Part shown: positions 2,147 through 64,000 of the stretch, in pieces
Numbering within the stretch: position 1 is the stretch's first letter
Layout: each line of letters begins with the position of its first letter
Origin: Boothiomyces macroporosus
Lineage: Eukaryota > Chytridiomycota > Chytridiomycetes > Rhizophydiales > Terramycetaceae
NCBI GenBank assembly: GCA_027604185.1
Contig: JADGKB010000052.1
Location: 1-64,000, forward strand
Direction: 5' to 3'
Length of the DNA stretch: 64,000 nucleotides
The notes under the pieces: model-generated
Told to the model about the DNA's origin: nothing
Seen by the model: only the letters and a program-made list of their open reading frames with translations
Databases searched by the model: none
Program-made: the position numbers and the translations under genes

Positions 2147-5100
2147 ATGCTTCGCTCAATATTAATTGTAAATTTAGACTAATCCAAGGCAACTACTAGA
2201 CCGCGCACTGTCCGTCATTTCGCATCTGCAAAGATCGCTCGTTCCTCAATTTTTGACGCTCTCGATACGTTTGAACGCAGACATTTGGGGCCAAACGAAT
2301 CTAATATTGAAAAAATGTGCAAAGTAGTTGGGGTATCCAATTTGGATGACTTGGTATCCAAGACTGTGCCTCCAGCGATTAATATTAAAAATCCTACACG
2401 TCTGGGTAAAGCATTGAGCGAAACTGAAACCATTGCTAGGATTAAAGAAATTGCGGCTAAAAACAAAGTCTTTAAATCGTACCTTGGATTAGGATATTCA
2501 GCTGCGCACACTCCAGCCGTGATTTTACGTAACGTAATGGAGAATCCTGGATGGTATACTCAAGTACTATTTCATTTTAAACTTTAGTATACTCCGTATC
2601 AACCAGAAATATCTCAGGGACGATTGGAAGCACTAGTAAATTATCAGACCATGGTTACAAACTTGACTGGTTTGGATGTTGCAAATGCGTCATTGTTGGA
2701 TGAAGGAACAGCTGCTGGAGAGGCAATGCTTCTTTGCTATGCCACTGCAAACAAAAAGAAGAATGTTTTTTTCGTTGACTCCAACTGTTTCCCTCAAACT
2801 ATCGCTTGTGTCCAAACTAGAGCTGAAGGTTTTGGAATTAAAGTCGTTGTTGAAGATTTCAAATCATTTGATTTCGCAAAGCACAATGGAAATGTAGTCG
2901 GAGCACTTGTTCAATATCCAAATGTCAATGGAGAAGTTCATGATTATGAAGCCTTTTGTGCAGAAGCACACAAGAATGGAGCGTTAGTCGCCTGTGCAAC
3001 TGATTTAATGTCATTGGCTTTGTTGAAACCACCTGGTGAATTTGGAGCAGATATTGCTCTTGGTAACTCTCAAAGATTTGGTGTCCCACTTGGGTATGGT
3101 GGTCCACATGCTGCTTTCTTTGCTGTAAAGGATGAATTAAAGAGAAGAATGCCTGGTCGTCTGATTGGTTTATCAAAAGATGCAGAAGGCAACCAAGCTT
3201 ATCGTTTGGCATTGCAAACCAGAGAACAACACATTCGCAGAGAAAAAGCCACTAGTAATATTTGTACTGCTCAGGCTTTATTGGCAAACATGGCTGGATT
3301 GTATGCTGTTTATCATGGTCCAAAGGTAAGTTATTCTAACTTTAGGGTATTAAAGCCATTGCCCAAAGGATTCACAATTTAACTGCCATTCTTGCTCATA
3401 GTGTTACTGCTCTTGGACATAAAGTTACTAACACTTCATTCTTTGACACATTAACCATCCAATTGACATATCCTGCAGATGATTTGATTAAAAAGGCAGC
3501 GGATCATGGAGTCAACGTTAGAAAAGTAAACGATGGTACTGTTGCAGTATCACTAGACGAAACTGTTACCAAGCAAGACTTGGTCGATTTGATCAACTTG
3601 TTTGCCTCCAGTTCATTCATTGAATCTTTCCAAAAAGGAACTGACAAAGCACCATTCATTTCTGCAAACACCATCGATTTATTAGCCACAGCTTCAAATA
3701 TCACATCTGACAGTGGAGCAAAGGTATTCCCTATCAAACTTGCTAGAACCAGCCCATATCTTGAACACCCGGTATTCAACTCGTACCACTCTGAAACGGA
3801 TATGCTTAGATACCTCTACCACTTGCAAAAGAAGGATCTTTCTTTGGCAGATGCAATGATTCCATTAGGTTCATGCACTATGAAATTAAACTCTACCGTT
3901 GAAATGATTCCAGTCACTTTCCCAGAGTTTGGAAACATCCATCCTTTTGTTCCTAAAGATCAAGCCGAAGGGTACCAAATTTTGTTTAAAGAATTGGAAT
4001 ATGCACTATCAGAAGCAACTGGATTCGATCATATTTCACTCCAACCAAACTCTGGCGCACAAGGTGAATATGCTGGATTACGCTGTATCAAAGCTTATTT
4101 AAAAGCAATAGGAGAAGGACATCGTGACATTTGTTTGATCCCTGTATCTGCTCACGGAACAAACCCTGCTTCTGCAGTTATGAGTGGAATGAAGGTAGTC
4201 ACAGTTAAATGTGATGAACTTGGCAACTTGGATTTGCAAGATCTTCGAGAAAAAGCAAAGAAATATGAAAAGACTTTGGCTGCCACCATGATTACCTATC
4301 CATCTACATATGGTGTATTTGAAGAGGGAATCACTGAAGCTTGTAAAATTATTCATGAACATGGTGGACAAGTATATATGGATGGTGCCAACTTGAATGC
4401 TCAAATGGGATTATGTAAACCTGCTGAAATTGGAGCTGATGTCTGTCATTTGAACTTGCACAAGACATTCTGTATTCCTCATGGTGGTGGTGGCCCTGGA
4501 ATGGGTCCAATTGGTGTCAAATCGCACCTTGGACCATTCCTGCCAGGCAACCCTGTCATTACATCTGGAGGAGAAAAGGCAATAGGCCCAATTTCAGCAG
4601 CTCCATGGGGTTCAGCATCCATTTTGCCTATTTCATGGGCATACTTGAAATTGATGGGTGATGATGGACTTCGAAAAGCTACTCAATTAGCATTGCTTAA
4701 TGCAAACTACATGATGTACAGGCTAAAGGACCATTACAAAGTCTTGTACACCAATGGACATGGAAAATGTGCTCACGAATTCATCATTGACTGCCGTCCG
4801 TTCCAAGCAACATCTGGAATTGAAGCTATTGATATTGCAAAGAGATTGCACGACTATGGCTTCCACTCACCAACAATGTCGTTCCCAGTTGCAAACACAT
4901 TGATGATTGAGCCAACCGAATCTGAATCCTTGGCTGAACTGGACAGATTCTGTGATGCCATGATATCTATCCGCAAAGAAATCAAGGACGTTGCGGATGG
5001 CAAGTATCCAAGAGATAACAATGTTCTTGTTCGTTCACCACATACGCAGCAAGTAGTAATGTCTGATAACTGGGATAGACCATACAGTCGTACTTTGGCA

Positions 5101-5226
5101 GCTTATCCTATGAACTTGCTCCGCCATAAATCCAAATTCTGGCCAACAGTGAGCAGAGTAGATGATACTTTTGGTGACCGTAACTTGATTTGTTCTTGTC
5201 CTCCATTAGAGTCTTATGAAGATTAA
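2147..5226 (+). CDS. GCV2: Glycine dehydrogenase (decarboxylating), P-protein
   Basis: P-protein of the mitochondrial glycine cleavage system: PLP-dependent decarboxylation of glycine, passing aminomethyl to lipoyl H-protein. Exons 2147-2167, 2189-2563, 2588-3325, 3346-5226 join to 1004 aa, the usual length. Introns are 21, 24 and 20 nt, all phase 0. The first exon has only seven codons (MLRSILI) and, joined to [15 protein letters not shown], gives an Arg-rich presequence; without the intron no ATG precedes the conserved RRHLGPNE. Family signatures: NPGWYTQYTPYQPE across intron 2, GPHAAFFA, and the PLP-lysine region [18 protein letters not shown] (Lys about residue 749). The last exon is long and uninterrupted. 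Identification is secure; mitochondrial targeting is inferred. Confidence 0.95.
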
Positions 5227-5667
5227 TATATGCAATATTGAATAATTATTCTTGCTCTCTTTAGGAATAACAACCGAGCAATATGTTCATTTCAATTCAA
5301 CAAAGATTTGAATGACCATTAAGAGACTTTTATGACAGCTAGTATTTTGTTTGGCATTATTTCACAGCGATTCGCTTAATGAAACCCCTGTTGACCATGC
5401 GCAAGTCTTTTGCTGTGGTACCAATCGTTCAGATGACTTTTTGTTATCCGATAAAAAAATAAAAAATCGCAAACGGATGAAATCAGACCGCAGCTATCCG
5501 TATAGATACTAAAGATATGCGCGGCCCCGATGCGTTCATTTTAATATAGTTGCAGTGAAACTAAGCTTATTTGAACTGGCGCCTCTGATCTTTTTCCTCC
5601 TTCCTTTCTGAGACGGTGGCGTTATGGCTTTGTGAAAAAAGCCTTGGTGAAATTTTTCACAACTATA
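5227..5667. other. Intergenic spacer with promoter of CCCH gene
   Basis: About 440 bp, AT-rich, no gene seen. It separates the glycine dehydrogenase stop from the first plausible ATG of the CCCH protein and presumably holds its promoter. A T/C-rich stretch lies at 5588-5610. Confidence 0.4.
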
Positions 5668-6869
5668 ATGAAGGATTTGCTTCCTAGCGATTTGTACAAT
5701 GAAATCGATAAACTAGACGACAATCTAGCAAAGTCACTCCCTAATCCACCTACATTTCGACAGCCAGTGAAACCAAAAGCAAAGAAAACGGATGAAAGGG
5801 ACAATAGGAAAAAGTCTCTGTACAAGACTGAGCTCTGCAGGTCTAGAGAAGAAACTGGGGTGTGTCCGTACGGGCCCAAATGCCAATTTGCGCATTCTGA
5901 AGCAGAGCTGCGAGTCCTTGATCGTCATCCAAAGTACAAGAGTGAACAATGTAAAACTTTTTGGGAAAAGGGAACTTGTCCTTATGGTAAGCGATGTTGC
6001 TTTATTCACACTTCAAAGGACGACGTAAAGGTGCTTGCTTTCTAACGTAGAAACCTCTTATGATCAAGACAGAGAGGCAACGAACCGTTTCAGAAGGTTT
6101 CGAGTATGACACCTCATCCCCAGTGGAAATCAAATCGGCAAGGCCATTCAAGGAAATGCGATCTATTCCTTCGTTCGATTATGCAGAGTCTGCTGGAGTG
6201 TATAGAAGGTATGACTATCCTTTCGAAGATGAAGATGACTATGGCTCTTTCAAATCTCAAGACATTTCAAATTCACTTCGAAACTATGATGCTTTCGAGC
6301 ATGCTCGCTCTGTTTCGGACTTTGGAAGCTTAAAGAAGCCGTTCTCGGTTGATCCAAAGCCTTCTTTTGAATCATTTAGAAATAGCTACAAGGAACCAAT
6401 GTTTGGAAGCAAGTCATTCCAGGACCCAATATCCATGCGCTCATTCCAAGACCCTATTGGTATGCGACAAGACGCATTCTCTATGCGCACATACCAAGAC
6501 CCACTACCATCTCCAAGTGCGTTCACAAAGTTCCAGGAACCAATTTTCCCAGAATCTCCAGTTAAAAGCAGCAAATCATTCACTCAACCATCTGCATTGC
6601 ACAAATCATTTGAAGACCTTTCACTCTCATCTCCATCATCCTATGAAACACTTGCTGACAAGAAAATTCACTCTAGCGCAAGCGTAAGTGATCTTGGAAA
6701 CTCTCTTTCTAAAATGAGAGTTACTGTTGATAGGTCATTATCTAGAAGTAGAAGAGGATTCCCTGATGTATTTAATTCTCAAGAAACATTATTTTCTCCT
6801 GTAACACCTGTCACTGGAAAGTTTGATTTATTAAGTCCTCCTTCATCGCCAAAATATTTAAATCAATAA
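5668..6869 (+). CDS. Tandem CCCH zinc-finger protein, TIS11/tristetraprolin type
   Basis: Exons 5668-6030 and 6051-6869 give 393 aa. Two CCCH fingers of the C-x8-C-x5-C-x3-H type lie at about residues 54-120; each is preceded by the family lead-in (YKTELC, YKSEQC). Such proteins bind AU-rich 3' UTR elements and promote mRNA decay. The C-terminal region is disordered and Ser/Phe-rich with a repeated SFQDPI/TYQDPL unit (residues about 236-265). The splice is needed because the first frame stops at 6045. The donor is ambiguous: GTGC at 6031 (20-nt intron) or GTAAAG at 6025 (26 nt); both keep frame and differ by two residues. The start is the first ATG in frame; an upstream ATG at 5624 opens only a three-codon ORF. 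Confidence 0.85.
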
Positions 6870-6951
6870 TTTATATTACGTTTTTAGTAAACTCGGTTTT
6901 TATTTAAAGTTGCTTTTAATTGTTTGTATATTTCAATTTGGGTAGACCAAA

Positions 6952-7124: not shown

Positions 7125-8451
7125 TCAAATCTTTATTCTCTTTCTTCGAAAATCCTGCTCATTTTCTTCGAAATCCCATACTGTGATACTACCATTATAA
7201 TGCCCCGTAAAGATTTTACTACCAATCCAGCTGATGCACAGTATAGAACTACTAAAGTCGCTTTTCAGGGTCCTCGTCAGCAGCCCCCGCTTTAAATCCC
7301 ATATCCTTACTCTGCCATCCCAACTGCCACCAACTACCATATTACTTTGCATGTAAAGACAAGTTATTCTGTCACTTAGGGATGACAGCATTGGTAATTG
7401 CTCCACAAGAATCGATTCAAAGTCACTTATTTGCCATGAGCGAATGTTTCCGTCTTGGTACCCTGCAATGATTTTGTATTTCATCTGTTTGACAAATTGA
7501 CCAGTCAAGATACCTGCCACACTATCAATGGTGTGAATTAATTTGCCTGATTTGTAAATGTAAATCTTTCCCAGTGAAGTCATTGCCACTATGATGGATT
7601 GAATCTGTCCAACATAAACTATATTTGATATTGTACAACTCAATCTTGAAAAATGGGTGGGATCTTTTGAGCCTGATGCTTGGACAGATCCGCTTTGTTT
7701 GGTAGATATCTGCTCCAAATCTTGGCCAAATCTATTCGTGGTATAAATGGTATTATCTGAGCCTAGTACTATTTGGTCCCCAATTTCTATTCTATTTATA
7801 TTACATATATTGAAATCTTTTCTATGTCTAGTTTTGATATTTAATACAGTGAATCTGCTGCTCGACCCAATATATACTAAATCGCCATCTATTTTAACTG
7901 ATTCGATTTTCCCTTTCCACCGTCCAATGGTTTCTTTAAAAACACAAGTAGGTAGTGGTACATTTCTATTTGGAGATGTTGGTGGGGTTAAATTGAACCA
8001 TTCGGGGTTACAAATGGATGTAGTTTCAGGTTCTTGATTATTGATATTCCACAGACTGAGTTTACCATCCCAGCTACCGGTTAAAACCGTGTCTTTATAT
8101 ACTGCCATGCAACATATTGCCTTACTATAGGTTTCAGTGCTACTATAATTGTATGGTACAGTCATCCACAAATACCTTTGTTTCAGATATTCCTTGAAAA
8201 AGACGTACAAATCTGGGTTAATGAACAGTACTATTTCGCGAGTATATTTGTTCTGTTATGCATAATCTTCTCCAAACTGAATCATCGGTTATCAATATTG
8301 CGAAAAGCTTGCATGTCTGTTTTAACGCGATCAAATCTGAAAAATCCAAGTATTTTGAAATCAATTGCCACAGCTCTGTAGGCAGACTAGATAATGTAGG
8401 AGAAAGCAATCTCGATAGCTTGGATTGAATATACTCTATCTTATGCTGCAT
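7125..8451 (-). CDS. F-box/WD40 repeat protein
   Basis: Exons 8451-8232 and 8212-7125 (19-nt intron, phase 1) give 435 aa. Residues about 16-62 form an F-box (LSSLPTELWQLISKYLDFSDLIALKQTCK...DSVWRRLC). WD40 blades follow: LTGSWDGKLSLWN, IIAGYQDGNIRSWQ, VGGSWDGRVRIWD and FTGHYNGSITVWD are clear, with degenerate blades between. F-box/WD40 proteins are substrate receptors of SCF ubiquitin ligases. The intron is supported because the F-box frame meets a stop at 8218 while the WD frame continues with NNLYVFFKEYLKQRYLW. The substrate is unknown and no close named orthologue is evident; the repeats are too diverged to call it Cdc4 or Met30. Confidence 0.85.
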
Positions 8452-8524: not shown

Positions 8525-11500
8525 TTATTCGAGAATTTCAGTGAGCTTCTTTCTTTCTTCCTTGGACAACCCAGAGAGGAGAGAGGCAATCGCGTCAAAT
8601 TTACCCGTTTTGATGGCAGAGAGCTTTTCAATGCTGTTTTGCAACACAATTTGATCAATCTTTTCCGAGTAAATGTTCTTGTTTTCTCTAATCCACTCAA
8701 CAAATTGTTGGTCATGGTTGATAACGTCTTTTGAAACATCTTCCTGCAGCCATTCGTTGAAGAGCTTTTGAGCTTTTTGGATTGGCAAGGATGCTTTGGT
8801 AGCAATGTCCTTTACGATAGCCAGCTCTTTAATTCTTCTTGACAAGCGGTAGTAAAAGTATTGGCGAGAATCTTGCCATTGGACAATATCACGAATGACT
8901 TTCTTGCTATACATTCTGCTTGGTCTGTCATGCAAATCAGCCAATTCAACTGCTGCTTGTTGGTATACTGGTAGCAATTGGGTTTCTAGATCCTTAATCT
9001 TTTTACCAATCTCAAACTTTGCAGATTCGGCGGTTTCCTTTTCAAGAGATTGAAGCAAGGTTTTATACTCGGTTTGCAATCGCTCCATAGTATTGATCAC
9101 TTTAGGAGTACGGTACTTGATTTCCACAATCCCTTCTGGTTCCAACACACCACCACGTGCATCTTCGTAACTGTACATTTCCATAAATTCAGGATTAATA
9201 GAAGGATCAACCACAACCCACGCTCCACCACGAAGCTCCCCAACAATATAGATAAAGATTGGCTGCTTGTAGTCTGTCAATGCATCAACGATTTCGGCAC
9301 CAAACTTGAGTACTTCTTTGGACATGTCACTCTGTCCACCAGAGAACCCTCTCCAATTGGCAAAGATGATTAATGGAAGCTGTTCACCATAGTTAAAGTC
9401 TCGGATTGCTTGAGCGGTTTTGAATGCAGAATTTGGATACCATACTTGCCCTGCTTCTTTTACCACTTCTTCTTGAGATGTTTCATTTGCTGGATCAGCA
9501 TACAAAACAGTTTCAGTAGCTCTAGTTTCGACCGAAATGACACCCATTGGAATACCTACATTTAAATAAGACTTTACCTCCTAAACGAGCTCTACCAACA
9601 ACAATACCCTGAGCCCATCCTCCAAGAGTTTCTTTAAAGGAGTTTCTATCAAAGAATCCAGATTTATAGGAGCCATCTTGAATACCTCCTTCAAGTAAAA
9701 TTCTTGGGTTGTAAGCTCCCTTTGGAATGCAGACATCAACTGTACGATGAATAGAATCCTTGGAAGGAATGATTGGTAAAGGAGCATCCCTCTTTTCTGG
9801 AACGTAAGAGAGCCATCTAAGAGTTTCTTGGATACCATTAAAATCATTGGAGGCAGTAAGGTGAGACACACCATTGTGGTACATGATTCTTGGACCTCCG
9901 AGCTGCAAGTTCGATGCATAAACTTGTCTACCCAAAACTTTGTTTAATGCGGCAGCACCAGTCAAAATAATTGGAGTGTAATCGACTTGAATCACACGTT
10001 GACCCAAACGAACCAAGTACGCACCAATACCGACTGAACGGCAAGTGACCAGTGTCAAGGTAAAGATATCCTTGTAAGCCCTAGAAGTTTCACCAGCAAT
10101 CATACCAGACCCTTGAAGGTTTTCAACACCCAAGCCATGCTGTTGACCAATGATAGCCTCAAGTTTGTAAACAGTTTTGCCTTCGTATACAACAGGCTCA
10201 GCTTTCACAGATGGGTTTTCTGAATCCTTGTTGAGCTGATTGTAGTCTGCTTCTTCTACATACAGGTACTCGAATCCTTTTTGAGGTGAAGACGAATCTT
10301 TCCATGCAATTTTGTACTTTGACAACAATTCATCCGCCAATCCGATTCTGGCACCGCTATTGGCAGACAAGTAAATACGAGGCAATCCTAAGGAGCGTGC
10401 TAATTGAGATCCTTTCAAGAACACTAGATCTTCGAGCGGACCAAAAGAGCCCATCTGGAAAGTAATATCATTGGCAATCACAATCAATTGGCGACCTCTA
10501 GGATACTCTGGAGTGTACAATTCCATTTTGAATACAACCATACCGCAGTTATTTGAACCTAAATTAATCATCACTCACCTGCAAGCCGGCTGCTTTCTTC
10601 AAGTTCGTTTTCAGAATTTAGGACCAACTCTACACATCTCATTAGCTTTTTAGGAACGTTATCTTTCCAAATATTCTTGAGGGCTTGCTCAAACAATGCT
10701 GGGAAATCATAAACATAAGTTGTTCCAAGCAAGTGAGCCTTGTATCTCTTTGGCTGGATAGCATGCTTTGGAGCATGATGACGAAGCACCAACTGTCCAT
10801 GATGTGGTCCATTTTGAATAGTAGACCCATTTGGAGAAAGAGTTTGCAATACCATCTGATCCTTTTCCTTGATCTGAGTGTACCATGAAATGTTCATTAC
10901 ATATTCAGATGGAATATCGATAATCAAACGGAAAGGAACGACTTGTCTTGAAGTTGGATGGTAGGCCAAGAAACAGATTTCGGCTTCACTAACTCGCAAT
11001 TTACACAACTGCGAGCGATGACGTTCTAGTAATTGTTCCAAAAACACCTGGACCAAGTCAATTGGCAAGTCGAAAATTGGGATAAACTGCAACAAGATAT
11101 GGTTGCAATCGGTGTTTGGATAGGTAGACGAGAGCAAATCCAGTGTATTGAGCATATCAATTGTGATTCTATTCGCTTCAGAAATGATAAAGTCTTGGAT
11201 AGAGACAACGTTTGCAGGGTGAATGATACCTCTGATAAAGAATCTAGTATCAGTTGGATTGGACTTTCCAACTGCGTGGTAAATTCTAAGCCCTCTGGTT
11301 GATATTGGACATGGTTTCACGTGGAAGTTGCTTAATCTTTCAAGCTCCAAACGGTGAGACATGAACGGTTCGATATGTCTAATAACCAAATCTTCTTGAT
11401 AATCTCTAGAAGCCTTGAAAGTAAAGTATCTAGTCTGTTGGTTAGGCTCGTAAATCATAAACGTAACCCGCTTGATCAAGTTTTCTTTGAGGAACTCTAG

Positions 11501-14500
11501 ATGCTCTTGAATGAAACCAGCCAATAATCTTGCAACTGCTTCATCACTCTTGTTTAATTCAGGATTGTTCAAGACAATTGTAACATAGCCTGAAAAATTT
11601 TGATCAGGGTTTTCAGCAATTCCCAAGTACGGCAAGACAGATTTTACTTGTTTTACAACTTCATCAATAGACTTGCAAGCAAACAAGACCCCTTTCTTTA
11701 GATTATTCTTGTTTGTAATTGGGCTTTCCAAGATATCATCAGTCTCTTTTCTAATGTTTTGTTCAGGGTTGCTGAAATTCCAAGAGAAAATAACTGTATC
11801 TTCAATGAAATGGTGATCGAAATAGTTGATGGTGTACGCTTGGTTAGTGCGCATAACATAGGTGTATAGAGCAATAGCACGTAGTGAAATGTCGCTGTCA
11901 AAGAAAAAGTCTGGAAGGATATCCAGGATTGGATGACGGGATACGATTAGCCTGCTTAGCTGACTGAAATCGAAAAATACTCTGTCGCCACTCTTTTTCG
12001 AGACTTTGGAGAAAATGTTTAAAATGGTAGATTTACGTTCTGCAATACCAGGAAGTTGGTAGCCAATGAGGATTTCTCTAGCTCTAAAAGATACCTTGTT
12101 GGTACTCTTGTTGCCGAGCTGCGCCAACTGATCAAGAATATTTGCAAACAGTTTCTTGTGCACTGCTGGGCATTCGCGTTCGATATGGTCCAAAATAGCA
12201 AGCACAAGTTCAGATCTTGGCTTTGGTTTAGAATGAGCACGAACAATGTTCAGCACCTTTTCCAAATTGTCCTTGTTTTCATCACGGAGTTTGAGGATTA
12301 CTCTTGCAGCAGCTGTTGATTCGTACAAGCTTTCGATATCATAGTACTTTTTGAGGATATCTAGTAGAAAGTCTCTTGATCTAGTTTGTAATCCAATCTT
12401 GTTCTTGTTTAGGATATCCATTATTGGCTGTAAAAGACCGTAAACAGAGTCCTGTTCATCCAATGGCAATGCTTCAACCGATTTTTTAATGTACCCTTGG
12501 ATTTCTGGAATGTTGGCCATTAACATGGTTGGGTTGTTTAGCAATTCCTTGCAAGTATCATACAAGAAGGCAGCAAGTGCGCTTGGAATACGAGAATTGA
12601 TTGATCCTAACACTTCCATAATTTCAAAGAGTGGCAGTTCAGGATTTTCTAATACTTTGATCAACTTTTCTACAAGAACTGATGGATCACTTTTAGGCTC
12701 GAAACCATTCATAAGGTTATCCACTTCAACAGACAGTTTCTTTAATTTGTAATGGATTTTCTCGTCGAGTTCAGATTCGCTATGTTAATAATTAGTACTT
12801 TGAGAATGGCAAGTTGCCCTGGAATGGAATAGCCTTCTTTACAGCTGATGGATCATCAAGCACCAAAGTAGCAATAATATCACCAGTAGACAAGACTGAT
12901 GATATTGGTTTGCAAGAGTTGAAGATACCGCTTTCTTTTGAAACTAGAGGCATGTACATTTTCATTACTTCAATTTCTGCATAAGAGTCACCCGCAAAGA
13001 TATGCTCTCCATCTTTAACCAAGTATCTAATCAATTTACCTGGCGATGGTGATCTTAATTGGGTAGGATCGTTTTCCTTTTCCATCAAAAACGTACTTCC
13101 ATCAACAACCAAAGTAGTTCCGTTAGGTTCGTCTTTAAGGTACACTACATTGCTTTTACCATTGATGACAACAAGAATACCGCCATCAGATAATGGTTTA
13201 GCAATAACATTTAGTTTTTGGTTTCCATGAACAATAGTTAGAGATTCAGGGCCAGTACAAAATACTTGGAATCTGTATTGAATGTTGTTGATGATAAAGT
13301 CTGAATTGAATTTTGTAGATAAAGATTCTTGAGATGGCACCTGTCCTTTTGCCAATGCTTTTAAAAAGTATTCATTGTACTCTCTAAAAGTAAGAAAAGA
13401 CTTTCCAATAGCTCCGCAGACTGCTGGCAGGTTGTTTATGGTTTGTTCCATTTGAACCATCTGATTAGAAGCAATCAGTTTGTCCAGCCAAGAAGTAGTG
13501 AATTCATTGTTTTTAAATACTTCATTTTCCAACAATTTGACTAGGTATTCAACAGTAGTGCGGAAATCACCTCTAATAGAGATTTCTTTTAGCGCGACAA
13601 CTAAATTTCTTCTTGCTTCTTCTCTAGTTTCACCATAAGCAAACAAGTGACCAAATTGCGAATCTGCATATTCGTGTACACCACCAGCAGCATTGACGGA
13701 AAAGTAGCCCCACACGTTGCTATTACTTTTAAAATTAAGTTCAAGGAATCTTCCACTGTTTGGTTTAAACCCAGCTTCAGGGTTTTCAGCAGTAATTCTA
13801 GTAGCAATAACATGGCCTTTAGCCTGAGGAACTCTTTGAATTTCAAATGATTTCGGATTCTGGAAATCAAAATCAATTTCGTCAGTTCCAGTAGGAGTTA
13901 GTCCGTACAATAATCTGATATCTTTAATGTTTGATAATGGGATTCCCATAGCTACCTGTAACTGAGCAGCAGGGATATTTACTCCACTAACCATTTCGGT
14001 GGTTGGATGTTCTACTTGCAACCGAGGGTTCAATTCTAAAAAGTAGTACTTTTGAGTCGATGGCTCATAAAGGTATTCTACAGTACCAGCAGACTTGTAA
14101 CCAACCAATTTAGCAAGATTAACAGCAGACTGTTCCATTTGTCTGAGTATTTCTGGCGGTGCAATAGTAACTAGATTAATTTAAAAGTACCTGGTGCTTC
14201 TTCAATGATTTTCTGGTGTCTACGTTGAACAGAACAGTCTCTGCCAAACAGAGCAATAGCGTTTCCATAAGCATCTGCCAACAACTGGACTTCTAAATGA
14301 CGAGCATCTTGGACTACTTGCATAACAAATATAGGAGATCCAGGAACTTCTCTTTGTACTTGAAGAAAAGAAGAACTGAAATCCTTCTTTTCATAAACCA
14401 GTCTGATTCCTTTACCACCACCTCCTTCTGAGGCTTTAATCATTACCGGAAATCCTATTCGCTCAGCGTGTTTCAATCCTTCATTCAAAGTAGTGATTGT

Positions 14501-15065
14501 GGCTTCCTTGTATAATTCATCGGGAACATTGCAGCCATCTTTAATAGTAATTCCTTGTCCACTCCAGTTAACACACGGTACATTTGCAGACTGGGCGACA
14601 ATAGTGGAGGCAATTTTATCACCCAGTGACCGCATTGCAGAAGCGGGTGGCCCGATAAAGCAGATTCCCAACTCTGTTAACCTATCTGCAAGAATAGGGT
14701 TTTCAGAAGCGAAACCCCATCCAACATAAACAGCATGTACTTTGTTTAATTCCGCAAGTTCTACAATCAGGTCGACATTCGAATAGTTGTTGTGGGAAGC
14801 ACCACCTGGTATTTCAATGAAATGATCAGCCATCCTGATATATTCCGCATTCATCTTTAAATCTTCAGGGGTACACATTGCGTAAAACTGGATTTCATCC
14901 TCACTTCCAAAAGTCTCGTAGGACCACTTTCTGATTGACCTGATGGCTTTGACAGCAGCCATACCATTGTTGGCAATCAGCACTTTTTGAACTAGTCTGT
15001 TTCCATTGGATTTCTTTACAAAATCGTCAACTACGTTAGTGAGGATTACCAGTCTTTTTCTTCAT
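8525..15065 (-). CDS. ACC1: Acetyl-CoA carboxylase, multifunctional
   Basis: Cytosolic enzyme making malonyl-CoA for fatty acid synthesis. Exons 15065-15050, 15030-14191, 14170-12799, 12779-10579, 10558-9578, 9555-8525 total 2146 aa. Introns are 19, 20, 19, 20 and 22 nt. Order of domains: biotin carboxylase ([18 protein letters not shown]-grasp loop [22 protein letters not shown] restored across intron 2), biotinyl site EVMKMYMPL near residue 650, central region, then the carboxyltransferase halves ([26 protein letters not shown] restored across intron 5; NWRGFSGGQ). The first exon is five codons plus one base, so the N-terminus is short ([14 protein letters not shown]). There is no mitochondrial presequence. 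Every exon junction keeps frame, so the gene looks intact. Confidence 0.96.
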
Positions 15066-23552: not shown

Positions 23553-25334
<1,782 letters not shown>

Positions 25335-25614
25335 GAAGATTTGGAAATTAATTTGTAGTTAATGAAGCCTTGTGGCGCAGTTAGTTCATTCGTGAGAGAT
25401 CATAATATCTATTGACACTAGAATATACATGCTTATTGACGATCATTATAACGTCGAAAGTAGTATGTTTGATTATGATAGTCGCTTGTATAAAATCGCG
25501 ACTAACCAGACAGCAGTCGCCCAACGGAATAGCCCCATGAATGATTTCCATTAGCCCGACTACAAAAGAATGCAATCTTGCCAATTCATCCTGCGTATAA
25601 AGGAAATGAGTTTA
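25335..25614. other. Spacer with an unsupported open frame
   Basis: 280 bp upstream of PGI1. A 67-codon minus-strand open frame at 25381-25584 cannot be joined in frame to the preceding gene by any visible intron and resembles no known protein. Confidence 0.4.
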
Positions 25615-36494: not shown

Positions 36495-37858
<1,364 letters not shown>

Positions 37859-37934
37859 TCTTAATTAAATAAATCCGATTATAGCAACCATTTGATATAT
37901 AGTATTCCGATGATATATCTCTTTGTGTAACTGA

Positions 37935-46781: not shown

Positions 46782-49196
<2,415 letters not shown>

Positions 49197-52200: not shown

Positions 52201-52573
52201 GTAATCTAGGTCAATAATAGGATACCGTTGACCACTAGATCCATCGCATTCTCTACGCCGTCATATACTTTTAAAAATCCCTCGAAATCACTTCCCAGCG
52301 AACTGCCATCCAGCAACGACAATGAGTATGGTATAGGATTAAACTATTATTAGATTTATATACTTCTGCACTCGTCATAAAATCCCAGCTGTGTCTTACA
52401 ACGCTCATTACTTCTGTAACCATGCTTGGCATGGAGTTGGGTTCATCCATTTCAGGCGTAAGGATTTTTGAAGACGTTGAATTGGAATTGGATTCTGTTT
52501 GAGGAAAGAAAGTATTAAGATTGGGGGTTTTAGCATCTTTCTTTATCACTGGTCGTTGTCTGCCCGCAAACAT
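49254..52573 (-). CDS. SEC8: Exocyst complex subunit SEC8/EXOC4
   Basis: Tethers secretory vesicles to the plasma membrane. Exons: 52573-52364, 52343-52226, 52205-51835, 51814-51733, 51704-51502, 51481-51411, 51390-51225, 51204-51186, 51166-51000, 50979-50744, 50724-50568, 50546-50268, 50247-49916, 49896-49663, 49643-49436, 49415-49254, about 1004 aa. Family marks: SWDFMTSAEFNPIPYSLSLLDGSSLG, AFNNAIQKFSSVVDTIADSKRRVQEIKSSL, ELQNHIYLKTK, then the helical body ending in LLLFVETNVGMFTYEEYLVIVELIY. Introns are mostly 19-21 nt; one exon is 19 nt. At 51705-51757 the splice is uncertain: a single 28-nt intron (51705-51732) or two introns separated by a 2-nt exon. The start is the first Met of MFAGRQRPVIKK. 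Confidence 0.9.
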
Positions 52574-52702
52574 GTCGCGTTCTCTTTCAAAAAACTTTCT
52601 CAATACCAACTTTTTATCCCAGACCAACAAATAGTACTTGTTCAGCATAATCGGCAGCACCAGGGTTGGGGAGACTGGCAGAATTAATATCAAGTAAAGA
52701 CT

Positions 52703-55700
52703 TTATTTCAACAGTGAAGACAAAAATATGGCCTTGATTATCTGTGGAAGCGCTTTGTTGTCAAGACAAGTAAAGGAATTTCCTTTCAACCCACTTGAAA
52801 GGCGCTCTGCTTGCTGGGATAGGTTCCCAATAAAGATAATAAACGCATTTACAGCACTGTTTGCATGCAGTTCTAGGTGAAATTTCACTTACCGCTTGAA
52901 ATGGCAGCTGGGCTGATATTGTATTGATGGAGATTGGCATCTGAAAGCACGAGTACAAAATAATCATCTCCTTCTTCCTTTACAACATTCTTAATCCCTG
53001 TGGATATCGCAGAGAGCGTGTTATCTAGTTTAAAGAATACATACCCCCACTCATACAATAGTTTGCATGCGTTTTCATTCGTGACAGTATTTCAAAAATG
53101 TCCTTTTCATTCTTTGGATATATTTTGTTGGGAATCAACTCTAAATCAGGACCATCCCCAGAATGGCCATAAAACTTATAGTTGAATTTGTGTTCAAACC
53201 CTTTGAAGGCTTCATTAATTCAGGAATACCTTCCATTATCATAAGAGCGCACTCCAAAGATCGATCCATTCTTCCATCATGACCATTGAATCTCATCATA
53301 CTTGCACTCAGATCAAACACGACAATGATTTGTTTTGGTTTGTGTTGAAAAGAATTATCATCGTCTGTTCCTCTAATTTTATAAATTGCCCGATCGCCAG
53401 CAATGCTATCTACCCTAAGGTTAATCCAGCTTACAATTTTGCATCATCAATATCTCCGCCGGTTTTATTTTTGAGCCAAACCCTCTCTTTATTCTTTACC
53501 TCAATGGTTTCCAATATTGCTCGCAATTCTTGTATCTCTTTCTTTACATTTTCTTTGTATTTCAAAAATATATCCATATCCTTGGCCCCCATGTTGATTT
53601 TTTTCAAGTGATTTGCCAGATTCAATCTGTGAAGCTCTTTTTGTGCATCACTGACTTCTTTTGGGAGTTCACCAATTTTGCGCTGTCGTTAAGGATGTGG
53701 TACTAATTCGAATGTTTCAGGATTAATTGTATCAGACTTTCTAGCTTCAACAGGGATTGAATCTGCCTGCGTATTAATCGCCATAGTACCGGTCCTCCAG
53801 ATGACCCATTGCCCATACCACCTTGCCCTCCAACACCTTTATTAGCCTAATTTACCTTCTCCCTGACCTTCGCCCTCACCTTCTCCACTTCCTTTACCTT
53901 TTCCCTTTCCAATACCTATGCCTTCTTGGACAACATCCGATTCTACAAATGCAATTTTATCAGGATGCTCCCCATCAATAACTAATTTTAATTTTCCAGT
54001 TTCTAGGGCACCAGTTAAGCTGGCCCACTTTTTCAAATCCTCCGTTATTGCCTTTCGATCAAGCTGGAAAACACCCATATAGCCATATTGATTTGTGTAA
54101 AGGATTGTCCCATTGTTCAAGTCAAGCAATCTTCCCTTTTCGTCTGGACGAGACACATATATACGCCTTCCCTTACCCTGCTTAAGTGAAAGAACTTCAA
54201 TAAACCCTGTTAAAGAATCATTCTGAGATTAGCCTTGGATACCTTTTTGCTGGTACTCACAGATACAAAATATTCCAGATTTTCTACTGTTATTGAATCA
54301 CAATAGACAGCGCTCATACTCTCTCTTTGCAATCCAAATATTTCCTTGTAATCATAAGGTGTGGATTTGGAAAATGCTGTGTACAAATCTAGGTAAAAGT
54401 ACAGAGTACCAGGAGGTGCGAGGTTGAACCAATAAGATTTTGAACTGTCTATCAATATTTTTCCTGGTTGAATTTTTCCCTTGTACGTTTGCTGCAAACC
54501 GTGAGTGATAATCCTAAAGTCTTTTGTGAAATTAAGTTCAAACAAGTTGCTTTCAGTAGATCTCACAACAAGGTTTTCACCACATACGTCAATATGCTGA
54601 ATTCTAAATGGGAGCTCGTACGAGAACTGTACGAAATCAGTGAACCTCACCAAAACCAAGATTTGATAATTTTGATGATAAATCACTACTGTAAATGGAT
54701 CATTACCAGCATATTGTTCAAGAAAACAACCTTTGCAAAAAATTGATTCCGTCATTGGATCAAGCCCAAGAACCACAGTTTTTGAAATAGTCTGATCTGC
54801 AAAATTCAGGATAAGCAAACTATGTTCATGGGAATCGTGGATGACAAACTTCTGTAGCCCAATTTCACACACAGTTAGACGTAAATTTCTTCGGGAAGGA
54901 ATATATTCGTAAAGTGGAATCTGGCGTCGTTGGTTGAAATTTGGATTTATAAGAGTAAGCATAACGGGATCACTAGACACCAGATATAGATGATTGTCAG
55001 AAGCAAGATGAATGTCCATCAAAAATCCAGAAGATATACCTTTAAACGACAGTAAATGTTCAGAAAAAGTCATCGAGCGTTCAGAATTAACTAAAGTTTA
55101 CCATTGACCACATCGATATCTTCCCAGTGTTTGGAGATGTCCATTTTCCAAGTACCTCTCATTATCAACTCTCTAGTCGTGGCAGTTATGCCAGTAGGCG
55201 ACTCTGCACTATAATGCCATTTCCCCAATAACATTGGCTGTCCCAACGCAAAATCTTCGCCCAGATTAATTGAAAATTGGGATTCTGATATTGTAGGCAA
55301 TCCATTTTTACCCATAGTTTCGAAAATCAAGTCCTTTACATCATCATTTAAATCAAAATCAAAAACATTCTTCAATGCTCGGGACACCCCTTCCCCTGGA
55401 TACAATTCCAAATGTCTTACTACATTTACTAGTTCCCTTGTAGAGTAAGGATAGTTGATTAATCCATCATCTACAAGTTTTCGCAATTCAGTGAATGCTT
55501 TTATCAGTTTGGATAATGTCTCTTTGGGAATGTTTGGTCCATAATTTTGAAGGAGCTTGAGTTCTGAATCTGGAGGAGGATTGTCCACACAATGAAGTGC
55601 AAAAACGTCTCCTACCTCATTGAAAAAGTCATTTCCTAAAAATGGAAATCCAGGCCTATTTGCAAGCGCAATCACTCTAAAGTCTTTGTGAATTACTATA

Positions 55701-58342
55701 GTGTTTGAATCCATCATTGCATTCACTGAATCAGGAGAAACTATTTTTCGTCCATCGTTTAAAACCATTTCACCGTCTTCGATCAATGATTTCAAGATTG
55801 AAGTGACATGTGTTGGCGCTTTATCTGCTTCATCTACCACCAATACATAGCCTTCTTTCACTGCTCGAACAAGAGGTGAATCTTCATAAACCAATTTACC
55901 ATTGATGATTGAAGGGCTGGATGTTAAATTGTAAACAGTGGTATCCCTGTGGAGTTGAATATATTCCCTTGAGAATCTCATTAGCTGCAGGAATCGATCC
56001 ACTATTTTGTTTTTTCCAACTCCTTGGTTTCCAACCAAAAGTAAGTGTTCACCAAGATTGAAATCTTTCAGCATTTCCTGCATATTAAATATCATCTACT
56101 TGAATAATGCGCGTTTGTCTAGGGTTGTCGTAAAACAAGATATTTGGAATTAAAACTGGATTGGAAGTCTGTGAAATAGTTCCTTCAACCGATCCGATTT
56201 TCAATTTCACAGCCTTTCCAGAATCGTCATAAATAATCTCATGCTTTAAATTCGAATCGTCTACTGCGTGCTCTTTGATTTCATGCTGCTTCAAGAGTTC
56301 AACAAGCGCTTGCTTTACCAAGGTCGGAAGAAACTTGAAAAGCATGGTTTTTAATATTACACCGTAAATGGTGTCTTGGGGGTAATTCGAAAGGCGACGA
56401 CAAATTCTGATCATTTGGCGAATAGAAAAGTTGTCTGACAATTGCTTGATTGCTTCCGATTCACTCTGTCTAATTGTATTCGCAAAGTTGATAATTTTCA
56501 AAATTGTTGCAGGAGGCAAATTCGGGAAAAGTGAGTTTAAAATGCGTTGCTCTTCATCAGTGCCCAAAGGTCTCACGGTAACGAATAAAAACATTGCCAT
56601 TGTCTCCGGATTCAACCAATTTGATTTCTTGCTCAAGTTTCCAGGTTTTGCAATACCAATAATTCTAAACGACGGATGAATTGGATAAAATCCCTTACTG
56701 TCCATATCTTTGGCTGTCCAGTTGTTTCTCTCCATCAAAAGCTTAAACCTCTTGGTATTGATTAGATACTTTCCATTTGGAAGAGGAATTTCTCTTTCTG
56801 AAATTAATCGTTGCAACGAAGATATAGTTCCATGAGGAAGGACATCAATACCGTCTAGAATCGCAACTTTTCCTTGAATAGCTGCAGTAACAAGTTGAGA
56901 ATTTTCCCAAACAGTGTCCCCGTTTGAATTTGTATTTCTCCTTTGCAAAATATCCCTTGCAGTCATATCCTTGTATAAAGATATAACCTCTGTACCATAT
57001 CCTAATAGCTGGCAGAATGTTTTCACTAGAGTGCTTTTCCCCGTTCCTTTTTCTCCCACTACACATATATCGTGAGAACTATGAGCCAAAAGGATATCAC
57101 ACACAAGATTGTCATGGCTAAGTTAGAGCACGTATACTATGGTGTTCGAATGTAACTGTTGTTATACTGCACTTTTCCCCAGCCAGACTGGAGCTCCAAA
57201 TTGCTTTTCTTCCCATTAAGTGTAAATTTGAACACTTTAACCTGATCGGATTTCCAGGCAACCCGATTATACTGGATGGGGAATTCTACGGAAGACGGAT
57301 CCAAAAATAAATTGAACCTTTCAAACATTTTCTGCACAGTGTTTTTCATTTGATGGTCTGCGGATGAAATGAACAATGGGGGATAGCACATCTGTATGAT
57401 ATATTTGGGGTCAATATCAACCAAATTGAGCACATTAAATATTCCGTCCAAGGTTTTGGGGAAATCAATGATTATCGCACCTTGGTCAGGTTCAACATTT
57501 TGAACTACGTTTGCCAGTCCGATAATGTTCTTTACATGCTCCTGTTTCACAGAAATAAACCGACTTTGAATTGACGAAATGTGTGAATCATAGTCAAAAT
57601 GATTTATATTCCTAGCTTGAAATCTGCTTCTAAACGGAGGGTCAAGAGGGAATCCTTCATACTTTGGCACCGGCAATCCAAGTGCAATTACCAAGAACTG
57701 CTCCGATACCTTCACAAGATTAAACTTTTCATAATCCCCATCGTTATTTTTCACAATTTCATCATACCTTTTGGGGTGCACCAAAAACCTCCCATCTTCC
57801 AACGCCATTTCTCGATTTTCCAAGAGATTATTAAGGATCGGGAGCACGTTCCTTTCTGCTTTCTTACATTAGCTGTTTAAAAATACCTCTACTCCATCTA
57901 AAATCAAGATTCGTCCTTCAATTGCCGCTCGAACACACCCTTGGTCAAAATAAACGGCGTTTCCGTTTCTAATCTCCCTTCTTTGTTTCAAATCTCCATC
58001 TGTTGTATCTCTGGTGATGGGAATATATTCAATTTCGCGTTGGGTAAGCTGAGCGTAAATTAAGGCAATCAATAATTTCAACGGGCCTGGAGCACTTTGG
58101 TTACAACAAAATTACCCAATCAAGAACATATCTTGCTTCAAGTTTCCTTTCTGAATCATCCATCTCAAATGGGAGAGGACAGTTTGAGATTTCAAAAATT
58201 GTTCAACATTTTCCACATTTGGAACTAATTCAGGGTAATTAGGAGGGCTGACAATAATGTGTGCATCTCCAATACTTATCTGTGATGTGGTTGATGTAAG
58301 AGTGCTTTGAATATTCTTCAACCTTTCAATCGGCCGAGACAT
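52703..58342 (-). CDS. VWA8: von Willebrand factor A domain-containing protein 8 (MoxR-type AAA+ ATPase)
   Basis: Exons: 58342-58116, 58094-57887, 57862-57138, 57117-56100, 56077-55102, 55081-54243, 54222-53856, 53836-53790, 53766-53704, 53682-53435, 53414-53230, 53209-53045, 53024-52893, 52872-52703; 1789 aa (human about 1900). Three AAA+ modules: the first has a degenerate P-loop (FLIGAPGPLKLL), the second VVGEKGTGKSTLV, the third LLVGNQGVGKNKIV with LVVDEADKAP. After a beta-rich middle and a Gly/Lys/Glu repeat, a C-terminal VWA domain carries the metal site DLSAS and YGHSGDGPD, LVLSDANL. In animals VWA8 is a mitochondrial matrix ATPase of unclear role; the N-terminus here shows no obvious presequence. 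The fifth intron (55082-55101) seems to end in TG. Confidence 0.93.
55082..55101 (-). other. Putative GT-TG intron, 20 nt, in VWA8
   Basis: Begins GTAAAC and ends TTAATTCTG. Removing exactly 20 nt joins WEDIDVVN to ERSMTFSEHLLSF in frame. An internal TAG would otherwise stop the protein, and no AG acceptor that keeps frame lies within about 30 nt. Confidence 0.6.
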
Positions 58343-61653: not shown

Positions 61654-63497
61654 TTATACTTTATTGTAGTTTTCGTAAAATAACATATATGGTTTACACC
61701 TTGCGACTTCATCCCAGTTTGTGAATCGTACTAGCGAATCACTGCAATATTGCCAGCTAACCTTTTCTCCAGAGGCAGACTGCTTGCGAATATAGGCTAC
61801 ATAGTGTCCGCCATTCATCGTTCCCGAATGTACTATCACTGCGTAAAGCCGGTAATTGCATGATTGTAATTGCCGACCATTCTTTTGATCACTCGGCAAA
61901 GGAGGTGCCACGAATTCGGAAATATCTATTTCTTCTTCAAAGGTGACATGATTGTTAACTTTTGAAACTTTGTTTCCTTTCTGAGAAAATCGCTTCATAT
62001 GCAACACCAGCACTCTAGGTGGAGTGTACAGCATGTAGCGTTTAAATGCCCTGGTGTAAACTGTCTCAACAGATACTGAATCCTTTTCTTGAACTTGAGA
62101 TTCAGCTTCGACAACCGCACCGCAAGAATCCATAGACATATCGGATGGGGTTCTGCTGATTGTGATATCGGACATTGTTTCTTCTCTTTTATCTTTGGCA
62201 CAATTTTCGCATACAAAACCATTATCATTTTCTAATACTTCAATATCAAAGAATTTAGCTACACACTGGGAAATAGTTGGATTAGAGTTAATCAGGATTG
62301 GATCAGTTTTCAATATTTTTCGTATTAGCTCTACCTTTTCCCTTGGCAAAGCCGCATTAGTGGATATACTTAATGTAGTCATTTGTTGTGTTACCGAAAC
62401 GGATTCAACCTCCTTTTTCTGATTGAACAAATTTTTCTTTACTTGTCTACCCAAGGAATTCATGTAGTTTTTAAATTTTCCTTCTTCAACCTAATGTCAA
62501 CAAATATTTACATTTCCAGGCATTGACAGAGAAAGATCCAGGAAATTTTCAAAAGAATAACTGATCTAATATCAAACTCAAGAATACATTTTTGCAAGTC
62601 GCACAAATGATTGTGCTGACCAGATTCCCTCCAAACACTTGATCAACGACTGTGCTTTTCCTTTCTTCAATAGAATGAGAGGTAAGTTCATCGCCACAAC
62701 TTTCTTTAGAATTTTCTGGTATTTCTGATTTTTGTTCTGCTTCAATATTGCTTGGCAAATCTTGAGAACTTGGTGGAAACGCATTGTCGTTACCATCAAG
62801 AACATTTGGCTCTTTTTTAGAGCCATTCAGATCAAGTCCCAACTGTTCATTTCTAATCCCATCCAATAATCGCCGCAGCATTTCATGTGAATCTTGCTGA
62901 CCATATCTTCCATATACTCCCCAACTTGTTTTTAAAATGTCAAATAATTCCTTTGGATTTACAGTTTCCTTTCTGTCCGTGTTGAGCTTTTTCATTAGCC
63001 TAAACAAAGTAATCTACGTTAATATTGAATAACTGTTAGAGTATGCTGCTCCTCTGCAGTAAATTCATGGAGGGCTTTCGTATATGCGATTGCTTGAATT
63101 ACAGAGTTGAAAAAACAAGTGTTCCCCAAGTTAGATAATCCTGGCGACAAACTTAATTGCTTGGACATGTATTGAATTGCTACCTCGTTCGTTACCACTT
63201 CTGCTTCAGTTACAGCCTGCAGTTTTTGAAGGATAATTCCCTTTGCCTCCTTTACTAAACTGTTTTCCTTTGGAATAACTTTGCATTGGATGCAATATAA
63301 CTCTCTACTGCTTAGGTTGTAATAGATGGTATGTAGTGTGCAGCTATCGCAAGCAAATATCCCACAGTCAGTGCAAATCCTGGTTGCCAACTGGTCGCAC
63401 TTCTAAGGTTAATTGAACTTACGCTGCAATGAAAATCAACTTTGAGGGACTTTAATTTTTTTAACTTGATGTACTCTCTGAGGTGCTTGCAGCCCAT
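61654..63497 (-). CDS. Ubiquitin carboxyl-terminal hydrolase, USP16/USP45-like
   Basis: Exons 63497-63423, 63402-63034, 63013-62588, 62565-62512, 62490-61654 give 586 aa; all four introns (20, 20, 22, 21 nt) are phase 0. The N-terminal ZnF-UBP finger is assembled across intron 1: GCKHLREY...VDFHCSKCDQLATRICTDCGIFACDSC...H. The protease follows: Cys box GLSNLGNTCFFNSVIQA, QQDSHEMLRRLLDGIR, zinc-binding CATCKN and CENCAKDKREE, then His box VIVHSGTMNGGHYVAYIR and WDEVARCKPYMLFYENY. The LDLSLSMPG segment lies in the 54-nt exon. This layout matches USP16/USP45, which act on histone H2A and other targets. The Asp/Asn of the triad (SDSLVRFTNWDEV) is in place, so it should be active. Confidence 0.92.
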
Positions 63498-63823
63498 TTT
63501 TTCCCTGAAACTTTTAATGGAGCTCCAGCTTTTAAGTGTCACACGAAAATTCCTTGTGTCCATTACAAAAGATAACGCAGGGATAATCGCAACTAATTGG
63601 ATCAAACGCAGATCAGTCAGGGGTGATTGGGAGTGAGGAATCACACGACGATCCGTTTGGATCTCCTTTATATGTGGCAGCTACTAAACTCGGCATTCCG
63701 CCTTTGTCTAGAATTAATCGCAGTCCAGATGCGGGTGCATATTTAAAGTTATTATTCTGTTGAAACTGTTTCAGTTGAAACAATTAGTGTGCCACGCTGC
63801 CAGAACTTTACTTTTTTCAAAAA
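63498..63823. other. Divergent promoter between USP and ArfGAP genes
   Basis: About 325 bp. At 63759-63783 the sequence GTTGAAACTGTTTCAGTTGAAAC combines a direct repeat (GTTGAAAC) around a CTGTTTCAG palindrome, 40-60 bp before the ArfGAP ATG; a possible binding site. Confidence 0.4.
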
Positions 63824-64000
63824 ATGTCCCACCTCTCCAAGGAGCAAATCAACAAGGCGTTTGCCAAACTCCAGTCCAATAAATCCAACAAAGTAAAGAA
63901 GCGCTAACAGCAGATTTGTTTTGACTGTCAAGCGAAAAATCCAACCTGGTCCACTGTTACTTTTGGTGTATATTTGTGTTTGGATTGTTCTTCAGTCCAC
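63824..64000 (+). CDS. GLO3: ArfGAP, Glo3/ArfGAP2-3 type, 5' part
   Basis: Runs off the right edge. Exon 1 63824-63892 ([23 protein letters not shown]) and exon 2 from 63914. The intron is 21 nt (63893-63913) ending CAGCAG; using the first CAG (18 nt) would insert one Gln. The joined sequence [31 protein letters not shown] is the CxxCx16CxxC zinc finger of ArfGAPs. The TFGVYLC wording and the short N-terminus fit the Glo3/ArfGAP2-3 class, which removes Arf1-GTP on COPI vesicles. Only the first about 52 residues are visible, so the class is a good guess rather than proven. Confidence 0.85.

Follow-up and report, generated by a model that had tools for sequence, protein, structure and literature searches.

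The first 64,000 bases of contig C52 (100,253 bases) of Boothiomyces macroporosus, a chytrid with a genome of 15.2 megabases (Mb) in 216 contigs that the source taxonomy places in Chytridiomycota, Rhizophydiales, Terramycetaceae, are referred to here as the window. They carry 33 gene models; the 30 of these that score at least 14 hold 103 predicted introns, and 97 of the introns belong to the 26 with a score above 20. The lengths in nucleotides (nt) are 19 (23 introns), 20 (40), 21 (21), 22 (11), 23 (3) and 24 (2), followed by a long tail of two introns of 26 nt and one of 60 nt, all three doubtful. An earlier note on the window had described GT-AG introns, nearly all of 19–24 nt and none of them shorter than 19 nt, in the genes of an opisthokont. 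Such introns were confirmed both here and in 20 other contigs, the host, a chytrid, is indeed an opisthokont, and the first and last introns that the note listed (2168-2188 and 63893-63913) both proved exact. No supported intron below 19 nt was found, and the 18-nt intron that an early model called in GPI is coding sequence.

Genes and Introns of the Window

The genes and their introns are collected in Table 1. Seven of the window introns are multiples of three without an in-frame stop; six of them are doubtful and the seventh (40720-40740) lies within a 43-nt gap backed by homology.

Table 1. Predicted genes of the window and their introns (lengths in nt in brackets). Names marked as presumed are our assumption; Pfam searches other than that for enolase, and several searches for homologues, used proteins of an earlier restricted model, since corrected, that held false 18- and 24-nt introns.
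Gene	Position	Strand	Introns	Basis or remark
Glycine dehydrogenase-like	2147..5226	+	2168-2188 (21), 2564-2587 (24), 3326-3345 (20)	Name presumed
CCCH zinc-finger-like	5668..6869	+	6031-6050 (20)	Name presumed
Weak model	7252..8451	-	8213-8231 (19), 7312-7337 (26), both doubtful	Score 14.8
Acetyl-CoA carboxylase-like	8525..15065	-	15031-15049 (19), 14171-14190 (20), 12780-12798 (19), 10559-10578 (20), 9556-9577 (22); doubtful: 11960-11980 (21, no stop)	Name presumed
Unannotated gene	15718..17144	+	17114-17136 (23), doubtful	Intron near 3' end
Ribonuclease HII	19001..19844	+	19182-19200 (19), 19325-19343 (19), 19580-19599 (20)	Pfam RNase_HII 2.7e-52, earlier fused model
Unannotated gene	21289..22830	-	22513-22533, 22445-22464, 22192-22213, 22134-22155, 22055-22076, 21684-21703, 21586-21605 (20-22)	Earlier model without Pfam match
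Glucose-6-phosphate isomerase (GPI)	23553..25334	-	25288-25309 (22), 25234-25254 (21), 24997-25015 (19), 24835-24854 (20), 24558-24578 (21, GC-AG), 23847-23866 (20)	4 of 6, including the GC-AG intron, recovered by signal-free alignment
Beta-lactamase-fold (PF00144) hydrolase region	25381..27604	-	26383-26402 (20); doubtful: 26524-26549 (26), 25591-25650 (60), 27037-27057 (21, no stop)	Two poorly joined models; Pfam, earlier model
Small unannotated gene	28067..28719	-	28657-28677, 28568-28590, 28500-28519, 28280-28298 (19-23)	Score 18.1, below statistics cut
CYRI (FAM49)	34346..35379	-	35288-35306, 35150-35168, 34897-34915, 34689-34707, 34481-34499 (19 each)	Pfam CYRIA-B 9.4e-93 (earlier model); 5 of 5 recovered using one or other of two chytrid homologues
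Enolase	36495..37858	+	36521-36540 (20), 36693-36714 (22), 37405-37424 (20)	Pfam Enolase_C positions 2-150 on DNA 36963-37403, 151-294 on 37424-37849
UDP-glucose 4-epimerase-like	38260..39294	-	39269-39288 (20), 38411-38429 (19)	Name presumed
RBM25-like (RRM + PWI)	40577..42064	+	Abutting 40698-40719/40720-40740 (22+21) and 41083-41102/41103-41121 (20+19); single 41444-41465 (22), 41815-41833 (19)	Pfam PWI, RRM_1
Mannose-1-phosphate guanylyltransferase-like	42458..43606	+	42590-42610, 42741-42761, 43064-43084 (21 each)	Name presumed
Short-chain dehydrogenase-like	45631..46559	+	45722-45741 (20), 45778-45796, 46080-46098, 46347-46365 (19 each); doubtful: 46233-46253 (21, no stop)	Name presumed
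Rsp5/NEDD4-like HECT ligase	46782..49196	+	46807-46828, 47448-47468, 47940-47960, 48483-48502, 48641-48660, 48782-48801, 49077-49096; doubtful: 47111-47131 (21, no stop)	Name presumed
SEC8 exocyst	49254..52648	-	16 introns between 49416 and 52363 (19-21)	
VWA8-like, 3' part	52703..55073	-	Eight introns between 52873 and 54242 (19-23); doubtful: 54686-54706, 54389-54409 (21, no stop)	Name presumed
VWA8-like, 5' part	55091..58342	-	58095-58115 (21), 57863-57886 (24), 57118-57137 (20), 56078-56099 (22)	Name presumed
Ubiquitin-specific protease	61654..63497	-	63403-63422 (20), 63014-63033 (20), 62566-62587 (22), 62491-62511 (21)	Pfam UCH 3.4e-45 (earlier model)
ArfGAP-like	from 63824, truncated by window end	+	63893-63913 (21)	Missed by finder; family presumed

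Intron Lengths in Unbiased and Refined Searches

Gene searches covered a sample of 264 kilobases (kb) made up of the window and 20 stretches of 10 kb, each from another contig, with codon usage for the finders trained on long open frames. An unbiased finder, which knew nothing beyond GT, AG, start and stop signals and codon usage, and for which all intron lengths from 8 to 150 nt were equally likely, called 172 introns in gene models scoring at least 20. Of these, 85 were 19–24 nt long (19, 36, 17, 5, 3 and 5 introns at 19, 20, 21, 22, 23 and 24 nt respectively), with 0–5 calls at each other length and 9 and 4 introns in the adjoining 6-nt length classes. The identical search rerun with nine other dinucleotide pairs in place of GT..AG gave 9–21 calls at 19–24 nt per pair and no peak there; outside this range GT..AG was without excess (87 calls versus 113–154 for the control pairs).

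A refined finder used data-trained models of donor and acceptor, imposed AG ends and GT or GC donors, and had a length prior favouring 19–24 nt and disfavouring 17–18 nt. It predicted 366 introns in 109 gene models scoring above 20 (seven of the 33 window models score 20 or less and were excluded from these statistics). A frame shift or in-frame stop demands the removal of 331 of them; the other 35, all of 21 nt, were excluded. The required introns comprise 77 of 19 nt, 141 of 20, 61 of 21, 32 of 22, 9 of 23, 3 of 24, one of 25, two of 26 and one of 30 nt and four of 38–60 nt, so that 326 of 331 fall at 19–26 nt under a prior that favours such lengths. The motif statistics given below use the 324 required introns of 19–25 nt, among which 311 are 19–22 nt long. 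The same peak (77, 133, 53 and 32 introns at 19–22 nt, most other lengths having 1–10) was obtained when the learned motifs were combined with a flat prior of 15–45 nt. This run gave ten calls at 15–18 nt in the whole sample, three of which are 21-nt GC-AG introns and the other seven tentative, and its apparent introns of 37–44 nt were set aside, most of them being, by eye, without a correctly placed branch motif. A further run with a flat prior to 300 nt and self-trained motifs drifted into spurious long introns and was dropped.

By these counts the 19–24 nt introns are real at the level of the genome, and they are in all likelihood genome-wide; linear extrapolation gives about 18,700 of them. 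The bulk of the introns lies below the ~30 nt by which ultrashort-intron genomes are recognized.

Alignments Without Splice Signals

An independent approach used a protein-to-DNA aligner in which gaps of 6–120 nt have equal cost and GT or AG is not preferred. Nine such alignments in five genes contained 71 gaps, of which 42 could be placed on GT/GC...AG within 6–9 bases. Altogether 25 distinct single introns, all of 19–22 nt, were recovered at exactly the modelled length, together with two abutting pairs: five of five in CYRI (alignments and final model put the five junctions at identical residues), 11 of 16 in SEC8 (against the Globomyces or Batrachochytrium protein), four of six in GPI including the 21-nt GC-AG intron, three in U2AF1 and two in the RBM25-like gene, where gaps of 43, 39, 22 and 19 nt were recovered against Terramyces P0142. 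U2AF1, itself a splicing component, is a conserved protein interrupted by introns of 19, 19 and 20 nt. Removal of these segments restores conserved proteins, which bears out the earlier claim that known proteins are restored in frame.

Branch Site, Acceptor and Donor

A scoring branch motif of the YTNAY kind was found in 273 of the 319 GT introns, and the best branch sites of all 319 read Y (91%), T (98%), A (79%) or G (14%), A, Y (87%). The branch A lies at intron nucleotide 14 in 120 and at nucleotide 15 in 112 of the 273, whereas shuffled intron bodies retain 89 motifs with, on average, 19 at these two positions (maximum 29 in 200 runs). Because the acceptor model of the refined finder covers the branch region, the count was repeated on the 85 introns of the unbiased finder, which has no motif model; strict YTRAY occurs in 57 of these, and in 51 of the 57 it lies at 14 or 15. 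The weak or absent branch signature of ultrashort-intron genomes is not seen here, where a strong YTAAY holds a near-fixed position.

Among the 261 introns with the branch A at nucleotide 13 or later, the distance from this A to the acceptor G is 5 nt in 131, 6 nt in 99, 7 nt in 14, 4 nt in 11, 8–10 nt in five and 2 nt in one, so that the AG used ends at least 4 nt past the A in 260. An earlier AG follows the branch in 12 of the 273 introns; in the ten of these whose branch lies at nucleotide 13 or beyond, the skipped AG ends 2–3 nt past the A and the used one 5–7 nt past it. An AG ending 3 nt past the branch A is also skipped in the ArfGAP-like intron, whose acceptor was chosen through the family that we presume for this gene. 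Given a branch A at 14 or 15 and an acceptor G at least 4 nt on, the floor of 19 nt would therefore correspond to 14 + 5 or 15 + 4.

The donors comprise 319 GT and five GC (e.g., 24558-24578), three of the latter beginning GCAAGT, and the acceptors end in TAG (212), CAG (66) or AAG (42 of 324). The context of the GT donors is -2A 57%, -1G 49%, +3A 90%, +4A 56% and +6T 58%. The GTA start, the YTAAY-like branch site and the AG end described in the earlier note are all borne out by these figures. The +5G, at 17% (13% in the unbiased set), is barely above positions +7 to +9 (13–15%) and shows no significant link to -1G (p 0.76) or +4A (p 0.23); it is no longer selected. U12-type introns have an ATATCC or GTATCC donor and a branch further from the acceptor. 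The present introns do not fit this type: the commonest donors are GTAATT, GTATTT, GTAAAT and GTAAGT, with GTATCC in 4 of 319, and the branch A lies 4–7 nt from the acceptor G in 255 of 261.

Spliceosomal RNAs and Proteins

The small nuclear RNAs (snRNAs) read in the same genome have canonical pairing segments, as compared by eye with the known consensus: the 5' end of U1 is ATACTTACCTG, U2 has GTAGTA and U6 has ACAGAGA. U2 (two loci) and U6 are above the cut-off, and U1 scores 68.8 bits against a cut-off of 69.5. The two U2 loci, on L003 and L004, have near-identical 5' halves and diverged 3' halves. Prp8 (PROCN domain 6.3e-233), SF1 and Yju2 were found above the cut-off and U2AF1 by a fission-yeast query in four matched stretches. 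Of the components U2, SF1, U2AF and Prp8 whose comparison had been proposed, U2 has a canonical branch-recognition segment, and genes for SF1, U2AF1 and Prp8 are present, as is one for Yju2; the U2AF2 gene is labelled U2AF2-like because its match is partial and below the family cut-off. One idea is that methylation of U6 acts at +4A; a gene with a METTL16-family domain is present, and the same domain also matches in bacteria.

A Probable Minimal U2-Type Intron

The segments are very probably U2-type spliceosomal introns that have shrunk as far as two spacings permit, and they would be removed from RNA by the ordinary spliceosome. The first spacing, from donor to branch, puts the A mostly at nucleotide 14 or 15, a stretch that U1 pairing (extending to roughly +8) together with the U2 branch helix (some 6–7 nt, reaching just past the A) would tile with no spare base. 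The second, from branch to acceptor, follows from use of the first AG whose G lies at least 4 nt past the branch A, usually 5 or 6. Such spacings may be what fixes the position of the floor, and recognition would lean on the YTAAY branch site and the GTA start.

Several points weigh against this interpretation. The evidence throughout is genomic DNA and the introns are predicted ones; the acceptor model of the refined finder spans the branch region and favours the observed geometry, and its length prior favours 19–24 nt, for which smaller unbiased sets served as a cross-check. The flat-prior run with learned motifs left a small unexplained excess of 14 introns at 38 nt (compared with 7 at 37 nt and 2 at 39 nt). 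Among the signal-free gaps, 29 of 71 have no GT/GC-AG placement and four of the 42 that have one do not correspond to a modelled intron. Additionally, a scoring branch motif is missing from 46 of 319 introns and lies upstream of position 13 in 12 of 273, and one of 261 uses an AG ending 2 nt past its assigned branch A. Finally, the search for U5 snRNA was empty (its controls gave no match either), as was that for RED, which had no working positive control.

Abutting Introns

In the 264-kb sample, five introns start directly after the end of another: two pairs lie in the RBM25-like gene, one pair in a gene on L016 that we take to be MCM7-like, and a triple (19+19+19) between HNA and WDNVEF in a presumably methyltransferase-like gene on L014. 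Three further exons are only 3–4 nt long. The 43- and 39-nt pairs of the RBM25-like gene are backed by signal-free alignment; the L014 and L016 cases come from the models. Abutting was seen at 5 of 359 intron ends (1.4%) versus 96 of 11,749 exonic AG sites with an intron (0.8%). It is thus about as common as insertion at AG, and abutting introns therefore look like introns that arose at the AG of another intron. A sharper contrast (5/359 versus 0/11,543) was set aside as biased, since called introns had been excluded. An origin by tandem duplication is unsupported, as the five abutting pairs do not clearly exceed random intron pairs in similarity (a fraction of 0.05–0.41 of the random pairs equals or surpasses them).

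An abutting group could instead be a single intron of ~40 or 57 nt that is removed all at once, its first donor being used with its last acceptor, and we give this reading a chance that falls only a little short of even. The messenger RNA would be identical, the public annotation of the RBM25-like gene omits the 43 and 39 nt whole, and the 38-nt excess could reflect introns of such a size. On the other hand, each unit has a donor and an acceptor to itself and also, as judged by eye, a branch-like motif with the unit spacing, and under the flat prior no excess over the control pairs was seen outside 19–24 nt. We tentatively propose, with well under even confidence, that a largely canonical spliceosome handles introns held at a physical minimum by two rulers, which can be stacked end to end and would be spliced unit by unit. 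Arrays of such units give the same messenger RNA in any order of removal, and a new intron beside an old one would therefore be neutral.

Alternatives to Ordinary Splicing of Short Introns

The earlier note had inferred a spliceosome adapted to near-zero spacing between donor and branch point, a claim not borne out by the U1, U2 and U6 segments read, which are canonical. A related possibility is that the introns are real and that a spliceosome specially modified in proteins other than those read permits the short spacing; this we regard as less likely than not. It agrees with the lack of selection on +5G despite a canonical U1, with the failure to find RED in the search mentioned above, and with a Yju2 alignment that starts at residue 9 and leaves the first eight residues uncovered. 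RED is named, together with Smu1, in connection with short introns in a work that PMC12862383 cites, and modified branching factors have been conjectured for Stentor (PMC9505925). Against it stand the canonical pairing segments, the strong match of the Prp8 PROCN domain, and the fact that Yju2 can be aligned with the human and yeast proteins starting at residue 9 of these.

It is very improbable that the introns are artefacts of the gene finder or of the motifs, that is, short GT..AG pieces cut from ordinary coding sequence. Early models did drop coding pieces (18 and 90 nt in GPI, 24 nt in CYRI), and among the 99 introns called at 21 or 24 nt there are 35 with no in-frame stop; however, the flat-prior peak appears for GT..AG alone among ten pairs, signal-free alignments returned 25 introns with the same lengths and places, and all 324 introns counted have to be removed on account of the frame or a stop. 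Removal of real segments by other means than splicing (DNA elimination or ribosome bypassing), to which evidence from DNA is by its nature open, is scarcely credible given GT/GC...AG ends, a branch motif at a fixed place, and the presence of snRNAs and proteins of the spliceosome in this genome; DNA elimination is not known from chytrids.

Public Annotations and Other Features of the Window

Very probably minimal U2-type introns, these segments are in part recognizable in public chytrid proteins. The RBM25-like protein HK103_005573 of B. macroporosus is identical to the window gene where aligned and skips one 19-nt intron plus the 43- and 39-nt stretches, and public annotation therefore already holds some of these introns. 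In place of the 22-nt intron it has a wrong one of 55 nt, with loss of ARWWAKRQRER, a stretch that is the same or similar in Terramyces, Globomyces and Kappamyces. Public CYRI proteins of close relatives also lack conserved stretches: the one of Terramyces JEL0728 leaves out precisely the exon flanked by introns 4 and 5, and the one of Boothiomyces sp. JEL0838 a stretch ending at intron 3, which suggests that relatives share these introns. For SEC8, no Boothiomyces or Terramyces protein was among the 20 matches listed (the candidates sharing most words were scored). Some public chytrid proteins thus miss conserved stretches, which bears on comparative work using them, and the public annotations of the B. 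macroporosus genome and of its relatives may need revision.

Other features of the window include a tandem array downstream of enolase (37930-38166), with units of ~23 and 44 nt containing GTGTATGAATCTAG, which is probably an intergenic satellite; an in-frame 33-nt repeat (MNEEQNVDSIT) at 20079-20188 in a gene with a Gar1/Naf1 domain; and a minus-strand open frame of 376 codons at 7128-8255, which has no coding signal (coding score -0.6) and is therefore probably not a gene as it stands.

Comparison with Known Short-Intron Systems

The introns of B. macroporosus come near the shortest known in nature; others of ultrashort length occur in ciliates, a nucleomorph, mikrocytids and dicyemids (PMC9505925, PMC10245619, PMC2483917). 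The earlier note had rightly named ciliates and a nucleomorph as comparable cases, but its list was incomplete, as the mikrocytids (16–17 nt; PMC10245619) and the dicyemids, which are also opisthokonts (PMC2483917), were missing. The introns of the ciliate Stentor coeruleus (15–16 nt; PMC9505925) share with those of B. macroporosus the GT-AG ends, AT-richness, conserved motifs for U1 and U2 pairing, and a fixed branch A followed by 5 nt; however, the branch A lies at nucleotide 10 in the 15-nt introns, compared with 14–15 here, and there is no strong branch consensus, in contrast to the strong YTAAY of the chytrid. The nucleomorph of Bigelowiella natans (18–21 nt; PMC10245619, PMC2483917) is alike in length range, high density and a mostly GT(A) donor, but these accounts report no branch signature, and its genome is that of a reduced endosymbiont whereas the present one is a nuclear genome of 15.2 Mb. 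The mikrocytids have a similarly narrow length range and conserved motifs; M. mackini, however, is a parasite with a reduced spliceosome and 224 predicted introns (PMC10245619), compared with the number extrapolated for B. macroporosus.

Dicyemids, like B. macroporosus, are opisthokonts with a high intron density and introns among the shortest known, but they have the weakest known donor and, in the account given by PMC2483917, no reported branch signature. Paramecium also has short introns throughout its genome (median ~24 nt in P. bursaria; PMC12862383); those of this ciliate are somewhat longer, and no branch signature is reported for P. tetraurelia in the same account (PMC2483917). Among fungi, Cryptococcus neoformans is rich in short introns and a 20–40 nt bin has been analysed, but "ultra-short" there denotes introns below 60 nt, with an average of 56 nt and spread lengths as opposed to a narrow class of 19–24 nt (PMC11913375). 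The literature searched, which excludes preprints and most subscription papers, contained no report of ultrashort introns in chytrids. Fungi are among the main models of splicing, and with such a chytrid the minimum spacing between donor and branch becomes testable, by genetics and structure, close to the yeasts. The chytrid case runs counter to the generalisation, as found in PMC2483917, that short-intron lineages lose their branch signatures: it is a known kind of intron, set apart by its strong branch site, by the clarity of the two spacings and by units that abut.

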